From Thermasporomyces composti (lineage in GTDB: Bacteria > Actinomycetota > Actinomycetes > Propionibacteriales > Actinopolymorphaceae): a DNA stretch of 64,000 nt. Below the pieces are notes generated by a model. It worked only from the letters and a program-made list of their open reading frames with translations, ran no database searches and was not told where the DNA came from. This document shows positions 2,796-22,788 of this stretch, piece by piece. The first letter of the stretch is position 1, and the number at the start of each line of letters is the position of its first letter. The stretch is from positions 3,658,001 through 3,722,000 of the forward strand of contig NZ_QTUC01000001.1 in NCBI RefSeq assembly GCF_003386795.1. Reading direction: 5' to 3'. A program made the translations under genes and the position numbers.

Positions 2796-5360
<2,565 letters not shown>

Positions 5361-14240: not shown

Positions 14241-15269
14241 GTGAAAGTCAAGAGCGTGGGTGTCGTCGGGCTCGGCGGCATGGGTGGAGTGCACATCGCC
14301 GGGTGGCAGCGACTCGGCGTGGACGTGCACGGGTACGACGGACTACCCGAGGCGCGAGCTCGCGCCCGCGACGAGCGGGGCGTGACCGTCCACGACGACA
14401 TGGAGAGCCTGCTCGGCGCGGTCGACGTGGTCGACGTCTGCACCCCCACCGACGCCCACCACACGGTCGCGCTCGCGGGCATCCGGGCGGGTCGTCACGT
14501 GATCTGCGAGAAGCCGCTGACCCGCACGCTCGCGGAAGCCGACGAGCTGATCGCCGCCGCGCGGGAAGCCGGCGTCCAGCTGCACGTCGCGCAGGTCGTG
14601 CGGTTCTTCCCCGAGTACGCCGCCGCGCGCGAGGCCGTCGTGGCCGGTCGCATCGGCACGCCAGCGGTGCTGCGGTTGACCCGTGAGGGCGGCATGCCCG
14701 CGGGCGACCGGTGGTACCACGACCAGGCTCGCTCCGGCGGCATCATCTGCGACGTCATGATCCACGACATCGACTTCGCGCGCTGGATCGCCGGAGATGT
14801 CGTCCGGGTCTACGCCAAGACGCTGCGACCGGCTGGCCCGCAAGGCGCCCACACCCACGCCTACGCGATCCTCACGCACGCGAGCGGGGCGATCAGCCAC
14901 CTCACCGCCTCGTGGGCCAGGCTGAAGGCGCCGTTCCGCACCAGCTTCGAGCTCGCGGGCAGCGAGGGCATGCTCGACTACGCGACCGACCAGCGGCCCG
15001 CGGTCCGGACGGCGCCTCCGGAGCTGGCCTTCGCCGGAGGTTGGCCGACGGCGGAGGACCCCTGGGCCGCCGAGCTTCGCGAGTTCCTCGCCGCGATCGA
15101 GGACGGGACACCGCCCCGGGTAGGCGCGGAGGACGGTCGGGCGGCACTGGAGATCGCGCTCGCTGCGGTGGAGTCGGCCGAGACCGGACGCGCGATCGAG
15201 CTTCCGACCGACGAGTCGGACACGAACCTTGGTACGACGACCGCGTCCGCGGAGGTGACGTCGGCATGA
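14241..15269 (+). CDS. Gfo/Idh/MocA-family oxidoreductase (1)
   Basis: 342-residue NAD(P)-dependent oxidoreductase of the Gfo/Idh/MocA family, enzymes that oxidise or reduce sugars, inositols and related compounds. The N-terminal Rossmann fold begins with GVVGLGGMGGVH, and the family EKP motif is present (VICEKPLT, about residue 90). The second domain has the substrate-side GGIICDVMIHDIDFARW motif with the catalytic His. The start is GTG 14241, preceded by GAAGGGA; a TTG one codon earlier is possible. The stop overlaps the next dehydrogenase start by 4 bp (ATGA), so the pair is an operon and may make a heteromeric or sequential pathway. Substrate unknown. Confidence 0.9.
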   Translation: MKVKSVGVVGLGGMGGVHIAGWQRLGVDVHGYDGLPEARARARDERGVTVHDDMESLLGAVDVVDVCTPTDAHHTVALAGIRAGRHVICEKPLTRTLAEADELIAAAREAGVQLHVAQVVRFFPEYAAAREAVVAGRIGTPAVLRLTREGGMPAGDRWYHDQARSGGIICDVMIHDIDFARWIAGDVVRVYAKTLRPAGPQGAHTHAYAILTHASGAISHLTASWARLKAPFRTSFELAGSEGMLDYATDQRPAVRTAPPELAFAGGWPTAEDPWAAELREFLAAIEDGTPPRVGAEDGRAALEIALAAVESAETGRAIELPTDESDTNLGTTTASAEVTSA

Positions 15270-16312
15270 GCGGCTCCCCCAGCCCTGCCACCGAGACCAG
15301 CGAGCGCCCGCTCAAGATCGGGATCCTGTCCTTCGCCCACCTGCACGGGCTGAGCTACGCGTCCGTGCTGGCCAGCCGCCCTGACGTCGAGCTTCGCGTG
15401 GCCGACGAGAACGCCGAGCGCGGCAAGCCGATCGCCGACCAGCACGGCGTGAGCTTCACCACCTCCTACGCCGAGCTCCTCGAGTGGGGGCCGGACGGCG
15501 TGGTCATTTGCTCGGAGAACGCCCGTCACCGCGTGCTCGTCGAGCAGGCCGCGGCGGCCGGAGCACACGTGCTGTGCGAGAAGCCCCTCGCCACGTCGTT
15601 GGCCGATGGCCGGGCGATGATCGAAGCCTGCGAGAAGGCCGGGGTCAGCTTGATGACCGCGTTCCCGGTGCGGTTCTGCGGCCCCGTCGTCAGCGTGGCC
15701 CGCCTGGTGCGGGACGGGAAGCTCGGACGGATCCACGGTGTGGCCGGAACCAACCCGGGCACGATGCCCGGCGGCTGGTTCGTCGATCCCGAGCTCGCCG
15801 GTGGCGGCGCGGTCATGGACCACACCGTCCACGTCGCGGACCTGCTGCGCTGGATCCTCGGGAGCGAGGCGGTCGAGGTCTACGCCCAGGTCAACCGCCT
15901 GCTGTATCCCGACCTCCCGGTCGAGACGGCCGGCACCATCGCGGTGACCTTCGAGAACGGCGTCGTGGCGACGATCGACTGCAGCTGGAGCCGTCCGAAG
16001 TCCTATCCGACGTGGGGCGGGGTGACGCTGGAGTTCGTGGGCGACGACGGCGTGGCGACCGCGGACGCGTTCGCCCAGACCATGAACTCCTACTACGACG
16101 GCCCGTCTCGGTCCGGCTCCCAGAACGTGCAATGGCTGCCGTGGGGTGACAACGCCGACGCGCTCATGATCGCGGAGTTCCTGGCCGCGATCCGCGAGGG
16201 ACGCCAACCGCAACCGAGCGGGTGGGACGGTTACAAGGCGACGGAGATCGCGTTCGCGGCCTACGCGTCGGTCAAGGCGGGGCAGCCAGTCCGCCTGCCT
16301 CTGGAGGAGTAG
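15266..16312 (+). CDS. Gfo/Idh/MocA-family oxidoreductase (2)
   Basis: 348-residue second member of the overlapping dehydrogenase pair. The Rossmann start is atypical (IGILSFAHLHGLSYA instead of the glycine-rich GxGxxG), so dinucleotide binding is uncertain, but the EKP motif (VLCEKPLA) and the C-terminal domain with GGGAVMDHTVHVADLLRW, including the candidate catalytic His, are present. ATG at 15266 is preceded by GGAGGTGA (15251-15258) and overlaps the upstream stop. Pairs like this act on inositol-type or keto-sugar substrates; nothing here identifies one. A loss of strict dinucleotide motif could mean a changed role. Confidence 0.9.
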   Translation: MSGSPSPATETSERPLKIGILSFAHLHGLSYASVLASRPDVELRVADENAERGKPIADQHGVSFTTSYAELLEWGPDGVVICSENARHRVLVEQAAAAGAHVLCEKPLATSLADGRAMIEACEKAGVSLMTAFPVRFCGPVVSVARLVRDGKLGRIHGVAGTNPGTMPGGWFVDPELAGGGAVMDHTVHVADLLRWILGSEAVEVYAQVNRLLYPDLPVETAGTIAVTFENGVVATIDCSWSRPKSYPTWGGVTLEFVGDDGVATADAFAQTMNSYYDGPSRSGSQNVQWLPWGDNADALMIAEFLAAIREGRQPQPSGWDGYKATEIAFAAYASVKAGQPVRLPLEE

Positions 16313-16422
16313 CCCGGAAGGAGGGGTCCAGGCGGCCGGGACATGACGACCCGGCGAGGGGTCGGCCGGAGGCGACCGGACCACGGTGAGGGCGATGAGA
16401 CCACGGTGGGAGACTGACCCTC

Positions 16423-17196
16423 GTGCGGGAGGACGTGTCGCCTCGAGACCGGTTCGTGACGGTCTACGGGATTCGACCGGTGCTGGCGGCCCTGACCGAT
16501 GAGCGCCTCACGGTCGACAAGGTGCTCGTCGCCGAGGGTGCCCGGAGCGGGTCGATCCGGGAGATCGTCGCCGCAGCCCAAGCGCGAGGCGTCGCGGTTC
16601 GACGAGTTCCGGCTCAGCGCATCAACCTCCTGTCAGGGAACCCGCGGCACGACAACGGCGTGCTCGCCGATGTCGTCGCTCCTCGCATGCGGACCTTGGC
16701 TGACGCGCTCGGTGGCAAGCACCACGAGCGTCCGGACACAGTGCTCGTGTTGGACGGGATCAAGACCCCGGCCAACGTGGGGATGATCCTGCGCTCGGCG
16801 ACGGCGGCCGGTCTGGGGGGAGTTGTCGTGCCGCATCGCGGAGTGGCCGACCTCGATCCGCTCGTGGTGAAGGCCTCCGCGGGCGTGGCGTTCCGCGCGC
16901 CGGTCCTCCGCTGCGACACGGCGGAGGAAGCCGCGGAGCGGCTGGTCGAGGCCGGCTACGAGGTGGTCGGGCTCGCCGCCGACGCGACAGAGACGATCTT
17001 CGAGACCCGCGTGGAGCCTCCGGTGGCGTTCGTCCTCGGCAGCGAGACCGAGGGGGTGACGGCGGCGGTGCGGCCCTACGTCGCGCGGTGGGTGAGCATC
17101 CCGATGCCCGGAGACGTGGAGTCCCTGAACGTCGCGAGCGCCGCGGCTGTCGTGTCGTTCGAGATCGTCCGGCGGCGGCTGTCCGGGCAGGCCTGA
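16423..17196 (+). CDS. SpoU/TrmH-family RNA 2'-O-methyltransferase
   Basis: 257-residue SPOUT methyltransferase. Residues 1-90 form the N-terminal substrate-binding domain (VYGIRPVLAAL, RHDNGVLADV), and the C-terminal catalytic domain has all three knot motifs: TPANVGMILRSA (motif 1, Asn), VLGSETEGV (motif 2) and IPMPGDVESLNVASAAAV (motif 3). It probably 2'-O-methylates rRNA or tRNA using S-adenosylmethionine; RlmB-like guanosine specificity is plausible, the target is not certain. Start GTG 16423 has GGGAG ten nucleotides upstream; a GTG four codons later is an alternative. It is separated from leuS by the leader region starting near 17272. Confidence 0.9.
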   Translation: MREDVSPRDRFVTVYGIRPVLAALTDERLTVDKVLVAEGARSGSIREIVAAAQARGVAVRRVPAQRINLLSGNPRHDNGVLADVVAPRMRTLADALGGKHHERPDTVLVLDGIKTPANVGMILRSATAAGLGGVVVPHRGVADLDPLVVKASAGVAFRAPVLRCDTAEEAAERLVEAGYEVVGLAADATETIFETRVEPPVAFVLGSETEGVTAAVRPYVARWVSIPMPGDVESLNVASAAAVVSFEIVRRRLSGQA

Positions 17197-17271
17197 GCGG
17201 GTACGAACCGGGCGTCAGCGCTCCGTGAGGTCGCGCGTCATGCCGTGCGGCGGCCAGGCGTTCGTGTGCGC

Positions 17272-17277
17272 TACCCT
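17272..17277 (+). promoter_or_regulatory. -10 element of the leuS leader transcript
   Basis: TACCCT, ending 7 nt before the ATG of the leader peptide at 17285. This spacing would put the transcription start at or beside the ATG, giving a leaderless leader-peptide mRNA. No convincing -35 is visible. Confidence 0.5.
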
Positions 17278-17284
17278 GAGGGGC

Positions 17285-17320
17285 ATGCCAGTGGCTCTGC
17301 TCCTTAGCGAGCCGCGCTGA
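17285..17320 (+). CDS. Leucine-rich leader peptide upstream of leuS
   Basis: 11-codon reading frame encoding MPVALLLSEPR and stop, with three successive Leu codons (CTG CTC CTT at 17297-17305). It is followed by a pairing of GCCGCGC (17311-17317) with GCGCGGC (17350-17356), an internal hairpin at 17327-17345, then an intrinsic terminator at 17357-17384, and leuS at 17492. This is the layout of ribosome-mediated attenuation: slow decoding of Leu codons when charged tRNA-Leu is scarce would favour readthrough into leuS. The regulation is inferred; the frame, Leu run and terminator are seen directly. The leuA leader at 52440 has the same CTG CTC CTT order. Confidence 0.65.
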   Translation: MPVALLLSEPR

Positions 17321-17356
17321 CCATCAGCGGGTGCGTGAGCACCGCGTCGGCGCGGC

Positions 17357-17384
17357 AAACCCCTCCTGTGTTGAGGGGTTTTTT
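17357..17384 (+). terminator. Intrinsic terminator/attenuator before leuS
   Basis: AAACCCCTC (17357-17365) and GAGGGGTTT (17373-17381) pair perfectly around a 7-nt loop and run into a T-tract (17379-17384). It is 107 nt upstream of leuS in the same direction and just after the leader peptide, so it is best read as the attenuator; it would also end transcription of the methyltransferase gene. Confidence 0.85.
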
Positions 17385-17491
17385 GTTCGAGGTCTGAGGG
17401 GCGTCCCCGAGGTGCCGGCGCGGGCCGGTGGTGGGGTCGCCGCGTCCCCGGCAGAAGTCACCATCCGCCCAGCCTTCACGGAGCACGAACG

Positions 17492-20044
17492 ATGAGCAAG
17501 TCGCACGCGGCAGAGCCGGAGTCGTCCACCCCTCGAGCGGGAACGGGCCCCCGAGCGGCGACGGACACCGACACCTACGACTTCGTCCGCATCCAGAACA
17601 AGTGGCTGCCGGTGTGGCAGCAGATGAACCCGTTCCGGGCGGACCGTCTCGCCGGAGACGACCCCAAGGCTGCGCCGGACCCGCGCGAACGCCGCTACCT
17701 GCTGGACATGTTCCCGTACCCCTCCGGTGACCTCCACATGGGGCACGGAGAGGCGTACGCGTTCGGCGATCTGATCGCGCGCTACTGGCTGCAGAAGGGC
17801 TACAACGTCCTGCACCCCATCGGCTGGGACGCGTTCGGCCTGCCGGCGGAGAACGCCGCGATCCGGCGCAACCTGCACCCCGCGGAGTGGACCTGGGCCA
17901 ACATCGAGACGCAGGCCGAGTCCTTCCGGCGGTACGCCGTGTCCTTCGACTGGTCACGCCGGCTGCACACGTGCGAGCCCGAGTACTACCGGTGGACCCA
18001 GTGGCTGTTCCTGCGCTTCTACGAGCGCGGGCTGGCCTACCGCAAGGCCTCGCTGGTCAACTGGTGCCCGCAGGACCAGACGGTCCTGGCCAACGAGCAG
18101 GTCGTCAACGGAGCGTGCGAGCGCTGCGGTGCGACCGTCACCAAGCGTGAGCTCACCCAGTGGTACTTCAAGATCACGGACTACGCCGAGCGGCTGCTCA
18201 AGGACATGGACCAGCTGGAGGGCCGCTGGCCAGAGCGCGTGCTGACCATGCAGCGCAACTGGATCGGCCGGTCCGAGGGCGCCTACGTCGACTTCACGAT
18301 CGAGGGTCGCGAGGAGCCGGTCACCGTCTTCACCACCCGCCCGGACACGCTCTACGGCGCGACGTTCTTCGTGGTGGCGCCGGAGTCGCGGCTGGCTCAG
18401 GAGATCTGCGCCCCGGAGCAGCGGGAGGCGTTCGAGGAGTACCTGGCGCAAGTCAAGCGGACGTCGGAGATCGAGCGGCTGTCGACCGAGCGCGAGAAGA
18501 CCGGCGTCTTCCTGGGCGCGTACGCGATCAACCCGGTCAACGGCGAGCGCATCCCGGTGTGGGCCGCCGACTACGTGCTGGCCGACTACGGCACGGGCGC
18601 GATCATGGCGGTGCCCGCCCACGACCAGCGCGACCTGGACTTCGCGCTCAAGTACGGCCTTCCGGTGCGCGTGGTCGTGGACACCGGTGAGCCGGATCCC
18701 GCCGAGACCGGCATCGCCACACCCGGCGAGGGACGGCACGTCAACTCTCCGGTCATCGACGGCCTGGGCAAGGACGAGGGCATCCAGGCGATGATCGAGT
18801 GGCTGGAGAAGCAGGGGATCGGCAAGCGGGGCGTCACCTACCGGCTGCGCGACTGGCTGATCTCGCGGCAGCGGTTCTGGGGCTGCCCGATCCCGATCAT
18901 CCACTGCGACAGCTGTGGCGAGGTGCCGGTACCCGACGACCAGCTGCCGGTGGAGCTGCCCGACCTGCGCGGGGCGGACCTGGCGCCCAAGGGCGTCTCG
19001 CCCCTGGCCGCGGCGACGGACTGGGTGAAGGTCGCGTGTCCGAAGTGTGGCGGCGAGGCGCGCCGTGACTCCGACACCATGGACACCTTCGTCGACTCCT
19101 CGTGGTACTTCCTGCGCTACTGCTCGCCGGGGTACCAGGACGGGCCGTTCAACCCCGAGGACGTGCGGCGGTGGATGCCGGTCGACCAGTACGTCGGCGG
19201 TGTGGAGCACGCGATCCTGCACCTGCTGTACAGCCGCTTCTTCACGAAGGTGCTGTACGACATGGGCATGGTCGACTTCACCGAGCCGTTCAAGGCGCTG
19301 CTGAACCAGGGGCAGGTCATCAACCAGGGCAAGGCGATGAGCAAGTCCCTGGGCAACGGCGTCGACCTGGGCGAGCAGCTGTCGACGTACGGTGTGGACG
19401 CCATCAGGTTCACCATGGCGTTCGCGGGGCCGCCCGAGGACGACATCGACTGGGCCGACGTGTCGCCCGGCGGGTCGCTCAAGTTCCTGCAGCGCGCCTG
19501 GCGGCTGTCCGGTGACGTCCAGAGCGAGCCCGGTGTCGATCCGGCGAACGGCGACCAGGCTTTGCGCAAGGTGACCCACCGGACGATCAAAGACGTCACC
19601 GAGCTGGTGGAGTCCTTCAAGTTCAACGTCGCCTTGGCCCGGCTCATGGAGCTGACCAGCGCGACCCGGAAGGCGATCGACTCCGGCCCGGGCCCGGCCG
19701 ACCCGGCCGTGCGGGAGGCGGTCGAGGCGCTGGCCATCATGCTGAGTCTGGTCGCGCCGTACACGGCGGAGGACATGTGGGAGCGCCTCGGCCACGAGCC
19801 GACCGTCGCGCTGGCGGGCTGGCCGAGCTACGACCCGGAGCTGGCGACAGCCGAGTCGGTGACGGCCGTCGTGCAGGTCGCGGGCAAGCTGCGGGACAAG
19901 TTCGAGGTCTCGCCCGACGTCACCGAAGACGAGCTGCGCGAGCGGGCACTCGCCTCCGAGAAGGTTCGCAACGCTCTGGGCGACCGGGAGATCCGGAAGG
20001 TGATCGTCCGGGCTCCCAAGCTGGTCAACATCGTCCCAGGCTGA
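17492..20044 (+). CDS. leuS: Leucyl-tRNA synthetase
   Basis: 850-residue class Ia leucyl-tRNA synthetase, which charges tRNA-Leu. The HIGH-type motif ([14 protein letters not shown], residues about 75-90), the CP1 editing domain with [15 protein letters not shown], the KMSKS-type AMSKSLGNG near residue 615 and the C-terminal anticodon-binding domain are all present; length is close to bacterial LeuRS. A Ser/Thr-rich N-terminal extension of about 30 residues precedes [13 protein letters not shown]. The start ATG 17492 has GGAG 8 nt upstream. It is transcribed through the leucine leader at 17285-17384, so control by leucyl-tRNA charging is likely, and ends in a strong terminator. Confidence 0.98.
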
Positions 20045-20062
20045 TCGTTCGAGCTGATCGTC

Positions 20063-20102
20063 GCGGGCGGGGAGAGGCCAGGCATGGCTGCTCCCCGCCC
20101 GC
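20063..20102 (+). terminator. Terminator downstream of leuS
   Basis: Perfect 12-bp inverted repeat, arms 20063-20074 and 20091-20102, with a further GCCA/TGGC pairing in the loop, 19 nt after the leuS stop and followed by TCGATTTG. It could also serve the convergent minus-strand gene ending at 20196. Confidence 0.78.
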
Positions 20103-20195
20103 TCGATTTGCGCGACAGGAGCGCGGCGAGAGGTGTGGCCCTCGCTCGCCGGCCCTTGGCGATGCTTCCGGGCGACGGTCGTCCGGGGCGGGCCG

Positions 20196-20723
20196 TCAGG
20201 AGGTCAGGCCGGCCTCAGCGAGAACCTTCTGCTTCTGGTAGGCGTACGCGACCATCCAGTGCGGCACGACGCGGAGGTAGACGACGTCGTCGGCCCAGGT
20301 GGTTGGCGAGCTGCCGTAGTGGCGTGTCAGGTGCTCCTCGATCTCTGCCCAGTTGGGGTGCTCGGGTGAGATGAACTCGGCCACGCCGTGGGTGAAGACG
20401 CCGAGGTCGTCTCCCCGGAGGTGGGCGACGCTGACCGCTGGACGCGCCTTGAGGTGACGCGCCTTGGCCGCGGCGCCGGTGGTGGAGAAGACCCACCGAC
20501 CGTGCAGGAAATGGCCGTCGACCGCGCTGATGCGCGGCTCGCCTCGCGCGGTCACCGTCGCCACCGAGAGCACGCACATGCCGGTGAGGACTCTGACCAG
20601 CTCTCGGGCGGTCAACGTGCGCTCGCCTGGTGTCACGATGGACCGTAGATGGGCGGTTGATCGGGCGAGCGAGGTGTCGAGAAGGGTTTGCAGCTCGTCG
20701 AGCTCGGCCTCGGTCTCTTTCAC
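20196..20723 (-). CDS. Pyridoxamine 5'-phosphate oxidase-like (flavin split-barrel) protein
   Basis: 175-residue protein with a PNPOx-like FMN-binding split-barrel fold. After an N-terminal helix (ELDELQTLLDTSLAR), residues about 50-130 contain VLSVATVTARGEPRISAVDGHF, WVFSTTGAAAKARHLKARP and VSVAHLRGD, the alternating strands and cofactor-binding segments of this family. The family includes F420- or FMN-dependent reductases and haem-binding proteins in actinomycetes; activity cannot be assigned. Start GTG at 20723. It converges with leuS and diverges from the phosphotransferase-like gene at 20897 across a region holding 16-bp tandem repeats. Confidence 0.82.
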   Translation of the reverse strand: MKETEAELDELQTLLDTSLARSTAHLRSIVTPGERTLTARELVRVLTGMCVLSVATVTARGEPRISAVDGHFLHGRWVFSTTGAAAKARHLKARPAVSVAHLRGDDLGVFTHGVAEFISPEHPNWAEIEEHLTRHYGSSPTTWADDVVYLRVVPHWMVAYAYQKQKVLAEAGLTS

Positions 20724-20754
20724 CGTGGCATTCTCACACCGGCTTCCGACAGTC

Positions 20755-20802
20755 TGGGCCGACGAGAAGCTGGGCCGACGCGAAGGTGGGCCGACGAGCT
20801 GG
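20755..20802. repeat. 16-bp tandem repeats in a divergent intergenic region
   Basis: Three contiguous 16-bp units beginning TGGGCCGACG at 20755-20770, 20771-20786 and 20787-20802, with a fourth degraded copy (GGCTGACGCG...) at 20803-20818. They lie between two divergent genes, about 95 nt before the GTG at 20897. Either a slippage-derived microrepeat or multiple binding sites. Confidence 0.75.
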
Positions 20803-20883
20803 GGCTGACGCGATCCGGAAAACGAGAAGGAGGCGTGCGGACGCGACGACCCATGCTCCCCGCTTTCGCGACGGTGCGTGCCC

Positions 20884-20889
20884 TACCCT
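20884..20889 (+). promoter_or_regulatory. -10 element of a leaderless gene
   Basis: TACCCT ends 7 nt before the GTG at 20897, the same hexamer and spacing as before the leuS leader peptide. A leaderless transcript is inferred. Confidence 0.5.
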
Positions 20890-20896
20890 GGCGATC

Positions 20897-21829
20897 GTGA
20901 GCCAGGGTGGTGACTTTCGTCAGGAGGCGCTGGCCGCGATCGCCGACCGGTACCACATACCGATCGACGATGTCGTGCCCGCTCCGATTCTGGGCGCGGC
21001 CAACCACGTGTACTTCCTGGGCGACCACCTGGTGGTGCGGATCCCGCGCGGGGGAGGAGCTCGGCTCGCCGAGCTGGCCAAGGAGGCGACCGTCATCCCG
21101 GTCGCCCGACGTGCCGGTGTCCGGACACCCGCGGTGGTGACCTACGACGACAGTTGCACCGTGGTGAACGTGCCCTACCTGGTCATCGAGCGTGTGCGAG
21201 GACGTGACCTGGCCGCGCTCGGCACCTCGCCGTCCGAGGCCGCGGACGCCTACCGTGACGTGGGCCAAAGCCTGGCACGGCTGCACGGGCTCACCCGTGA
21301 GCTGGTCGGCTCGCTGCCCGGTCTCCACGTCCACGAGCCAGACGACCCGCACGCCACCGTGGACCAGCTGGCCAGCGCCGGCTCCATCGACCTGGAGACT
21401 GCGCAGTGGCTGCTGGAGTGGCTCGATCGGCTCGAGGAGTGGCGCCCCGCCGACGTCGAGCCGGTGATCGTCCACGGTGACGCCTCGCCCACGAATGTCG
21501 TGGTCGACGCGGACTCACCTGACGTCGCGAGCCTGGTCGACTGGGGCGACGCCGCCTGGGCGGATCCCGCTGTCGACTTCGCCAAGCTGCCCTTGCGGGC
21601 GGTGCCCTTCGCGTTGGAGGGGTACGCCGCTGCGTTGAGCGGGCGGGAACGACGCGAGGCGATCCACGAGTGGTCCGCCCGCGTGCTTTGGTACCACCTC
21701 AGCTGGGCGCTGGCCGCCCTCCGACAACCAGGCGGTCACAACCGGACCTCACCGTCGGCTGACCGGCTGCTGGAGATGTTGCGGTTCTTCGCGGAGTCGC
21801 CGCCATCACCGTGGCCGTCGCTCGTCTGA
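20897..21829 (+). CDS. Aminoglycoside phosphotransferase-family protein (1)
   Basis: 310-residue protein of the APH/choline-kinase-like fold. The N-lobe has LGDHLVVRIPR; the catalytic loop is VIVHGDASPTNVVV (HGD Brenner-type motif), followed by LVDWGDAAWADPAVDFA, the magnesium-binding WGD segment. Proteins of this family phosphorylate antibiotics, sugars or other small molecules; nothing here identifies the substrate, and resistance should not be assumed. The start is set at GTG 20897, because of the TACCCT -10 element 7 nt upstream and lack of a ribosome binding site, which together suggest leaderless translation. Confidence 0.85.
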   Translation: MSQGGDFRQEALAAIADRYHIPIDDVVPAPILGAANHVYFLGDHLVVRIPRGGGARLAELAKEATVIPVARRAGVRTPAVVTYDDSCTVVNVPYLVIERVRGRDLAALGTSPSEAADAYRDVGQSLARLHGLTRELVGSLPGLHVHEPDDPHATVDQLASAGSIDLETAQWLLEWLDRLEEWRPADVEPVIVHGDASPTNVVVDADSPDVASLVDWGDAAWADPAVDFAKLPLRAVPFALEGYAAALSGRERREAIHEWSARVLWYHLSWALAALRQPGGHNRTSPSADRLLEMLRFFAESPPSPWPSLV

Positions 21830-21920
21830 CGCGCCTGGCGCCGTCGTCCACAGCTCCTCGGCTCGGTCGCGCTCTCCACAGCGCGGTCGTCGAACCGTGA
21901 GCCGAAGCACGCCCGCGTCC

Positions 21921-21926
21921 TAGCGT
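21921..21926 (+). promoter_or_regulatory. -10 element upstream of comEA
   Basis: TAGCGT ends 7 nt before the comEA ATG at 21934; no ribosome binding site is seen, again suggesting a leaderless mRNA. Confidence 0.4.
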
Positions 21927-21933
21927 CCGGGGC

Positions 21934-22788
21934 ATGGTCTTGTGGCGTGCCCCTCGTCCCGACGATGCCGCGGTGGCGCTCCACCGCGTGCGTGCGTTGG
22001 CTCGCCCTCGCTCACGGGTGGGTGGATGGGTTCCGCGGCGAGGGATGGCCGTGCCGGATGGCGGCGGCGAGCACGAAACGACGAGCGCTGCCGACCCACA
22101 GACCGACGCGGCCCCAGCCTCAGGTGGCCGCGGTGGTCTCGCGGCCGTGGGCGACGTCCTCGCGGCGGCGTGGTACGTGCGCCGAGGTCATGTGGTCGTC
22201 ATCGCGGCCCTGCTCCTGGCCGCGGTCCTGGCCACCGTCGTCACGGCGGTGCGGGACCGGCCTACCCGCATCGACCTCACCCCCGATGACGCGGCGGCCA
22301 CCCCCCGAACGCTCGTGCCGGTCGCGACCAAGGCTGGTCCGCCCTCGCCCACGCCGGCACCCACCATCGTCGTCCACGTCGCGGGGAAGGTCCGGTCGCC
22401 TGGTGTCCTGCGTCTTCCCCCGGGCTCCCGCGTGGTCGACGCGGTGTCGGCCGCAGGCGGTGCGCTGCCAGGGGTCGATCTCTCCACACTGAACCTCGCG
22501 CGTCCTCTCGGCGACGGTGAGCAGGTCCTCGTCGGCGTCACTCCACCGCCTGGCGTTGCGTCTCCTGGCCCGTCGCGTGGCCCAGCCGAGGGTGGGTTGG
22601 TCGATCTCAACACCGCCACCGCCGAGCAGCTCGAGATGCTGCCGGGCGTCGGACCCGTGCTCGCCCAGCGCATCCTCGAGTTCCGGGCGAGACACGGCCG
22701 CTTCTCGAGCGTCGACGAGCTACGCGAGGTGGCGGGCATCGGAGAACGTCGGTTCGCCGAGCTCGCCGCCCGCGTCACCGTCTCGTGA
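21934..22788 (+). CDS. comEA: ComEA-family DNA-binding/uptake protein
   Basis: 284-residue membrane-anchored protein. One hydrophobic segment at about residues 85-105 (VVVIAALLLAAVLATVVTAV) anchors it; outside are an SLBB domain (residues about 145-200, VHVAGKVRSPGVLRLPPGS) and a pair of helix-hairpin-helix motifs at the C-terminus (VDLNTATAEQLEMLPGVGPV, then LREVAGIGERRF). In competent bacteria ComEA binds incoming double-stranded DNA at the cell surface. Its stop overlaps the comEC start (GTGA), so they form an operon with holA. Whether this species is naturally competent cannot be told. The N-terminal 80 residues are long and Arg/Pro-rich, so the true start could lie at ATG 22045. Confidence 0.88.
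   Translation: MVLWRAPRPDDAAVALHRVRALARPRSRVGGWVPRRGMAVPDGGGEHETTSAADPQTDAAPASGGRGGLAAVGDVLAAAWYVRRGHVVVIAALLLAAVLATVVTAVRDRPTRIDLTPDDAAATPRTLVPVATKAGPPSPTPAPTIVVHVAGKVRSPGVLRLPPGSRVVDAVSAAGGALPGVDLSTLNLARPLGDGEQVLVGVTPPPGVASPGPSRGPAEGGLVDLNTATAEQLEMLPGVGPVLAQRILEFRARHGRFSSVDELREVAGIGERRFAELAARVTVS

Follow-up and report, generated by a model that had tools for sequence, protein, structure and literature searches.

A short element lying between an RlmB-like methyltransferase gene and leuS is, with a probability that we put at roughly three in four, a leaderless attenuator of leuS transcription that works through the ribosome, senses charged leucyl-tRNA and does so most sharply at the last CUU codon of its leader peptide. 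The leader frame, the hairpin and the terminator found before leuS are real, beyond chance. That transcription attenuation gated by codons operates at leuS is very likely because of their conservation, the covariation of both helices, the rare codon at the end of the leucine run and the exchange of codons seen in the elements before cimA and ilvB. The window, i.e. the whole stretch of 64,000 nt that was analysed, comes from a genome of 4.37 Mb in a single contig, and the relatives of its LeuS recovered by protein search are actinobacterial. The parts of the locus are as follows (window positions).

16423-17196: RlmB-like methyltransferase gene, the upstream neighbour (best NCBIfam model TIGR00186, 146 bits, under the cut-off of 160)
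17270-17388, plus strand: extent of the whole element according to the match of covariance model R1 (E 4.4e-14, whole-genome search; genome positions 3675270-3675388)
17272-17277, plus strand: TACCCT, -10 box of the TAnnnT type, putative leader promoter, 13 nt ahead of the leader ATG
17285-17320, plus strand: leader peptide ORF MPVALLLSEPR and its stop (direct reading; related leaders occur elsewhere)
17297-17305, plus strand: regulatory Leu codons CTG CTC CTT, with the last one, CTT at 17303-17305, as the likely sensor
17306-17310, plus strand: spacer of 5 nt from the last Leu codon to P1 (same length in 58 of 82 distinct elements)
17311-17321, plus strand: 5' arm of the P1 hairpin, overlapping the last codons and the stop of the leader ORF (covariation)
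17346-17356, plus strand: 3' arm of P1, forming 11 pairs with the 5' arm and ending directly before the terminator (covariation)
17357-17381, plus strand: intrinsic terminator hairpin of 9 pairs with a 7-nt loop (terminator scan; covariation)
17379-17384, plus strand: U-tract TTTTTT, entered by the terminator stem (direct reading)
17492-20044, plus strand: leuS, leucine--tRNA ligase, the regulated gene (TIGR00396 leuS_bact, 967 bits, cut-off 548)

The leader consists of 11 codons and a stop, ATG at 17285 and then CCA GTG GCT CTG CTC CTT AGC GAG CCG CGC TGA; this frame with its CTG CTC CTT run, proposed in the original prediction, could be read directly, and so could the GC stem followed by T residues, which is the 9-pair terminator. 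The start proposed for the element, 17272, is that of the -10 box, while its end lies at about 17388 instead of 17384. The transcript from 17285 to 17390 has a predicted folding energy of -52.2 kcal/mol, which corresponds to z = -3.58 relative to dinucleotide shuffles. A loose terminator pattern gave three sites on both strands of 701 bases, against 0.2 expected from shuffles, two of the three being overlapping versions of the 17357-17381 hairpin.

Conservation was assessed at 110 leuS loci: a set of 80 obtained by protein search, 29 more from 296 genomes of the class, and the window's own. A strict finder detected leader and terminator at 60 of the 110, window included. The covariance model R1 was built from an alignment of 30 diverse members, one of which is the window's own element. 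In this alignment both helices covary, with 97.0% of the cells paired and double changes at 9 of 16 pairs; none of 500 shuffles reached that level of pairing, and sliding the partners lowered it to 41-60%. R1 matched 58 of the 80 loci of the first set, each time 5' of leuS, and at E 0.01 it gave no match away from the leuS start in the 568,628 bases of these loci. Twenty-three of the 80 had served as training rows, and among the 57 others 35 were matched. Many of the 80 are from Arthrobacter and close kin. The Leu codons and the terminator are thus kept upstream of leuS in many genera, as the first reading of the sequence had anticipated. In whole genomes of the class, 234 of 394 gave at least one R1 match at E 0.01, not all of them at leuS; at E 0.001, eight genomes outside the class were found, among 22 of 296 in the sample. 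No Rfam family corresponds to the leuS element: over 15000-22000, the Rfam search returned two chance-level matches (E 0.76 and 0.87, far below gathering) and the T-box covariance model none, and nothing reached the gathering score at the leuS, cimA and ilvB loci of the window's genome.

A few loci depart from this pattern. No R1 match was obtained at 22 of the 80 leuS loci, among which all seven from Kocuria and those of Cutibacterium and Tessaracoccus; among the contigs of these 22, two have under 100 nt upstream of the gene. Four loci, three from Glutamicibacter and one from an Arthrobacter sp. (L049, L053, L073 and L077), carry short leaders, such as MKPQ, at a distance of about 60-130 nt from the leuS match on its upstream side; these have none to two Leu codons and an adjoining terminator. 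Leu-poor leaders of this kind beside a terminator that was kept are perhaps a natural series of decay.

Geometry and codon usage were examined in a set of 82 distinct elements. It was drawn from the 60 leuS loci and 40 fetched matches, three of which were omitted (two ilvB, one at a contig end); the resulting 97 were reduced by 11 duplicates and by four for which the finder failed to return P1 together with a terminator (L019, L039, L046 and L225), although the folds of the first three of these do show both helices. The set is weighted to relatives of the window's LeuS, with 39 of its 82 members coming from the 80-locus set.

A simple rule emerges for the two hairpins. The original prediction had seen, upstream of the terminator, a stem alternative to it; the stem exists, as the 11-pair P1, but it abuts the terminator instead of taking its arm. 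In the window the gap between P1 and terminator is 0 and no nucleotide is common to both. With a finder that returns no gap below 0, the gap was 0-1 nt in 79 of the 82 elements, as compared with 12% of shuffled controls. When P1 and terminator were located by independent finders, 61 of 80 elements had a gap of 0 or +1, 13 an overlap of 1-3 nt (the P1 finder returning no gap below -3), two a gap of +2 and four one of 11-22 nt; the total is 80 as these finders saw no terminator in two of the 82.

To represent the ribosome in RNAfold predictions, nucleotides were masked from the A site onwards. The mRNA enters the ribosome at about the A codon plus 5 nt, and the 8-nt mask covers just that, the A codon and 5 nt. 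Setting this mask at the last codon of the run left the P1 base predicted to form in 76 of 82 elements; setting it at the stop did so in none of the 82. P1 is thus placed where a stalled ribosome can spare it and an advancing one opens it. This gating hinges on the footprint assumed: 8 nt gives a gated P1, whereas with 13 nt the P1 base is blocked at the last Leu codon also (0 of 82, as at the stop). In nine leaders of cimA, ilvB and leuA the 8-nt mask likewise kept P1 closed when placed at the last regulatory codon and opened it when placed at the stop. As for the terminator, five states were modelled, with or without ribosome mask, and in each of them 78 to 81 of the 82 elements were predicted to form it; P1 and terminator coexist in nearly all of these predictions.

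The mechanism that we favour on these grounds can be described as follows. Transcription would begin at, or next to, the leader ATG, a start suggested by the sequence, and a ribosome would translate MPVALLLSEPR. When leucyl-tRNA is short, the ribosome would wait, its A site occupied by a Leu codon; P1, which begins 5 nt past the last Leu codon and hence at the mouth of the ribosome, would stay closed, the geometry being observed and its effect presumed. A closed P1 abuts the base of the terminator and leaves no spare nucleotide, so that the terminator would remain incomplete inside the RNA polymerase and leuS would be transcribed. When leucyl-tRNA is plentiful, the ribosome would reach the stop codon in the 5' arm of P1 and open the P1 base, and the terminator would form. 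P1, gated by the position of the ribosome, is in this modelling likely to be the antiterminator. Its blocking of the terminator is inferred, as the thermodynamics of RNAfold lets both hairpins coexist. That starvation turns leuS on is the most likely direction, judging from the role of the gene and by analogy with tested relatives.

The original prediction had spoken of a classical ribosome-mediated attenuator. The conserved leader, Leu run and terminator, and codons which track the downstream gene, bear out the ribosome-mediated part; the terminator, which persists in 78 to 81 of 82 elements in the folding predictions, gives no sign of an exclusive antiterminator. The classical three-structure scheme, in which, on stalling, the 5' arm of the terminator is captured by a segment lying between it and the leader, with P1 as the protector (1:2) hairpin, is the textbook arrangement, and for two leuS leaders from Streptomyces, Seliverstov et al. 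depicted antiterminators (PMC1262725; this and the following papers are cited for those parts of their text that were available). A model of Corynebacterium glutamicum ilvBNC also includes a third, anti-antiterminator hairpin, in the available part of its description. Yet no antiterminator capturing the terminator 5' arm appeared in the folds of the 82 elements with ribosome masks. For a ribosome placed on the final codon of the Leu run or on the stop, with a mask of 8 or 13 nt, the terminator had a probability of at least 0.5 in 80 to 81 of the 82. When each Leu codon was masked in turn in 45 sequences, the probability was at least 0.83 in all 45, of which three fold away from the terminator when ribosome-free. 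Moreover, a P1 and a terminator 0-1 nt apart leave no room for the loop between segments 2 and 3. We consider the three-structure scheme unlikely here.

Equally hard to sustain is the opposite role for P1, namely that it promotes termination, by stacking or by making the RNA polymerase pause, and that a ribosome stalled on the Leu codons removes it and causes read-through. The end-to-end stacking of P1 on the terminator would suit such a role, and a ribosome with a 13-nt footprint would indeed block P1 when stalled. With that footprint, however, a ribosome at the stop blocks P1 too (0 of 82), and the starved and fed states become equal unless release is very fast. A related candidate, a class-I pause with its UG located 11-12 nt past P1, was rejected: it fits the window (U17367, G17368) and not the cimA leader of the same genome.

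Returning to P1 as antiterminator, its predicted formation in 76 of the 82 ribosome-free elements would imply read-through of untranslated leaders, in contrast to C. glutamicum ilvBNC, where expression falls by 80% once the leader has lost its start (cited in PMC11857589). In the ribosome-free fold of the window, a small hairpin between 17293-17297 and 17309-17313 takes the first three bases of P1. From this modelled fold, the hairpin could serve as an anti-antiterminator that opens P1; small hairpins of this type are absent from most of the other folds.

The leader transcript is probably leaderless, starting at the ATG itself. This is suggested by the TACCCT box 13 nt upstream of the ATG (17272-17277), the sole TAnnnT box between 17197 and 17300, and the same arrangement recurs: 81 of the 82 elements have a TAnnnT whose first base precedes the start codon by 12 or 13 nt, as scored by a leader finder which gave extra weight to starts preceded by a -10 box. 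In a scan for this type of box, none was found between terminator and leuS (17385-17491), so that a start of leuS transcription downstream of 17384, the case that would have undone the original prediction, receives no support from boxes of this type. The same results bear on another explanation, an ordinary terminator of the rlmB-like gene joined to a chance short ORF, with the leuS promoter further down. The element does come after the RlmB-like gene of 16423-17196, and a terminator after a gene is a normal thing. But leader, Leu run, P1 and terminator are kept together before leuS, and the only box of the type scanned for is that of the leader, between the two genes, none being present in 17385-17491. 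We find this explanation very improbable.

The leucine run itself follows a pattern. Its final codon was CTT in 69 of the 82 elements, CTC in 12 and CTA in one, i.e. CTY in 81, as against 18% CTY among the Leu codons of leuS genes; in 46 such genes CTG makes up 79% of the Leu codons and CTT 2.2%. The earlier codons of the runs were CTG (66), CTC (62), CTT (28) and TTG (4). The finder took the longest Leu run, and isolated Leu codons do occur after it in some leaders (CTG or TTG in L047, L218, L229 and L232, CTT in L051); with these counted, the last codon was CTT in 65, CTC in 12, CTG in two, TTG in two and CTA in one, hence CTY in 77 of 82. CTT and CTC are both decoded by the tRNA with anticodon GAG, which is therefore likely to be the sensed isoacceptor. 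Downstream of the run, the spacer to P1 had 3-5 nt in 77 of the 82 elements.

The stop codon lies inside the P1 5' arm in two ways, as a TAG one codon past the last Leu codon (31 of 82) or as a TGA four codons past it (38 of 82, the L-x-x-P-R-stop type). As both positions fall in this arm, the variety of tails is accounted for: S/T-x-P-R is frequent past the Leu run, with SEPR, TGPR, SPPR and a bare S before the stop as variants. From the sequences, the peptide tail appears as a by-product of the RNA, the conserved thing being GCCGC as an arm of P1. Conservation of SEPR at the peptide level was considered and rejected, since two stop positions occur and it is the P1 arm that covaries. That the LLLSEPR peptide itself acts as a nascent-chain arrest peptide, for which the frequent S/T-x-P-R and an identical LLLSEPR in S. 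lividans might speak, is scarcely credible, as 31 of 82 elements have a single codon between the last Leu codon and TAG and the conserved part is the covarying RNA GCCGC of P1.

The same scaffold is found before other genes. In the window's own genome, R1 at E up to 10 gave three matches, before leuS, cimA and ilvB. The two other elements are the following.

705604-705707, minus strand: cimA element (L149; E 8e-5), leader MLSTMIIS with ATT ATT, hairpin, terminator
715303-715426, minus strand: ilvB element (L150; E 0.08), leader codons for I-L-V-L, hairpin, terminator

The product of this cimA is a citramalate synthase (TIGR00977, 586 bits, cut-off 450), and ATT ATT occupies the place which the Leu codons have at leuS; ATT was absent from the 21 Ile codons of the gene itself, over the 487 codons read. 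The gene downstream of 715303-715426 codes for acetolactate synthase. Among the 80 regions fetched with R1, 73 were assigned by tblastn and the other seven are the tandem-leuS regions described below. The 73 gave 70 assignments, 40 to leuS, 18 to ilvB and 12 to cimA or leuA; of the three left over, two are at contig ends and one precedes a 2-isopropylmalate synthase gene (leuA) according to NCBIfam. Of eleven cimA elements, the last regulatory codon was the rare ATT in 10, the spacer 5-6 nt in 10 and the gap 0-2 nt in all 11. The 19 parsed ilvB elements are looser, with a spacer of 1-7 nt in 17 and a gap of -3 to +1 in 16, two of the three gap outliers being parsing errors. For the ilvB element of the window's genome and for L262, both mis-parsed by the automatic finder, the geometry was taken by eye and the counts are left as the finder gave them; 3 of the 35 regions parsed by this finder yielded no leader. 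Outside the class, the scaffold precedes leuS, leuA with Leu codons, and ilvB. The leuA elements with Leu codons seen there are those of L244, L245 and L248.

The codon run thus varies with the gene that follows, Leu before leuS and leuA, Ile before cimA, and Ile/Leu/Val before ilvB, and such gene-matched swaps are what ribosome-mediated attenuation predicts. A wider reading may be drawn, that one re-codable scaffold (leaderless start, codon run with a rare last codon, 5-nt spacer, hairpin and abutting terminator) rules leuS, leuA, cimA and ilvB throughout the phylum, the codons choosing the amino acid, and that abutment of hairpins without common nucleotides is what antiterminates, by a mechanism of an unfamiliar type. 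Taken as a whole this is tentative, and so, as a part of it, is the idea that the length of the 5-nt spacer is set by the point at which mRNA enters the ribosome; we hold this joint reading to be possible and somewhat doubtful. Natural leaders with Leu, Ile or mixed codons on one scaffold provide a clean test of whether a hairpin that shares nothing with a terminator can prevent termination, and the rare sensor codon, the nearly fixed spacer and the abutting hairpins add to its value.

The attenuators of the trp, his and leu operons of Escherichia coli have a leader rich in the amino acid that is sensed, a terminator, a stop codon near the first hairpin and an overlapping 2:3 antiterminator; the leuS element resembles them in its leader and terminator and differs in that no 2:3 antiterminator was found. 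The original prediction knew of no standard annotation of this kind for actinobacterial leuS, which does not hold for Streptomyces. For S. avermitilis and S. coelicolor, leuS attenuators were predicted in 2005 (PMC1262725), and in 2021 the S. lividans leader LeuL2, MRAVRLLLSEPR, was described as leaderless by RNA-seq and followed by a hairpin and U-stretch (PMC8079986); the peptide of one of our leaders (L207) is the same. These Streptomyces systems share with the window the gene, the Leu run in LLLSEPR, a start that in the window is probably leaderless as well, the hairpin and the U-stretch, and the window has the features of the leuL2 type, consecutive Leu codons directly upstream of leuS and a terminator between leader and gene. 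They were, in the available text, published as classical attenuation, whereas the present elements show abutting hairpins together with spacer and sensor-codon rules; the published cases are, as far as found, from Streptomyces, whereas the element occurs here in many actinomycete genera and in a few genomes outside the class. A leuS attenuator has already been published for Streptomyces; compared with those papers, the scaffold described here is broader and more closely defined. No report of a leuS attenuator outside Streptomyces, or of a cimA leader, was found in titles and abstracts of the open-licence part of PubMed Central, and neither subject came up in the available portions of PMC3896937, PMC11995493, PMC9413887 and PMC13158618. 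In this light, a translated leader that controls an aminoacyl-tRNA synthetase would be a common design in actinobacteria, and the leuS element offers a compact amino-acid sensor.

The closest experimental parallels concern branched-chain biosynthesis. In C. glutamicum ilvBNC and the ilvB-II motif, the start is next to the leader codon, the leader is of the branched-chain type, the hairpin bases are adjacent and the ribosome pauses at the control codons CUU and GUA (PMC11857589, PMC10272879). The adjacent bases of the ilvBNC terminator and antiterminator hairpins (PMC11857589) share a GCC trinucleotide, in a model with a third hairpin, whereas the leuS hairpins mostly share none; the boundary trinucleotide was called a hallmark of ilvBNC by the 2025 authors (PMC11857589). 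In M. tuberculosis ilvB1, replacement of the LVVI codons by Ala abolishes induction and expression stays low (PMC13236596). Codon-dependent read-through, which is the likeness with the leuS element, was shown there with reporters; the gene and the codon set are different. Both the adjacent hairpin bases of C. glutamicum and the codon replacement in ilvB1 agree with the abutting-hairpin reading. Among the genomes listed for the family of M. tuberculosis, none gave an R1 match. In three genomes, ilvB leaders with LVVI codons (L267, L268 and L270) have, by eye, a hairpin that adjoins the terminator. Two other results recounted in PMC1262725 are worth mentioning: mutations of leader codons in S. 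coelicolor ilvB and leuA did not fit attenuation, and actinobacterial leuA was reported to carry a LEU element, with a pseudoknot that includes the leuA Shine-Dalgarno box. The LEU element is likewise a Leu-rich leader before a leucine gene, with a different fold.

Finally, duplications were encountered close to the window's lineage. The window's genome has one leuS element by R1 and one strong LeuS match by protein search. The seven other genomes of its family that were searched all have a second R1 match at a distance of 2.7-6.8 kb (E 8e-13 to 0.004); these are the tandem-leuS regions (L178-L184), two of which, L178 and L183, were read. In both, the second match precedes a second leuS-like gene. 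In L183 (minus strand), the second copy has kept leader and P1 and no terminator is visible. In L178 the two elements are located at about 420-560 and 3490-3610, and the second leuS-like gene scores 615 bits with leuS_bact.
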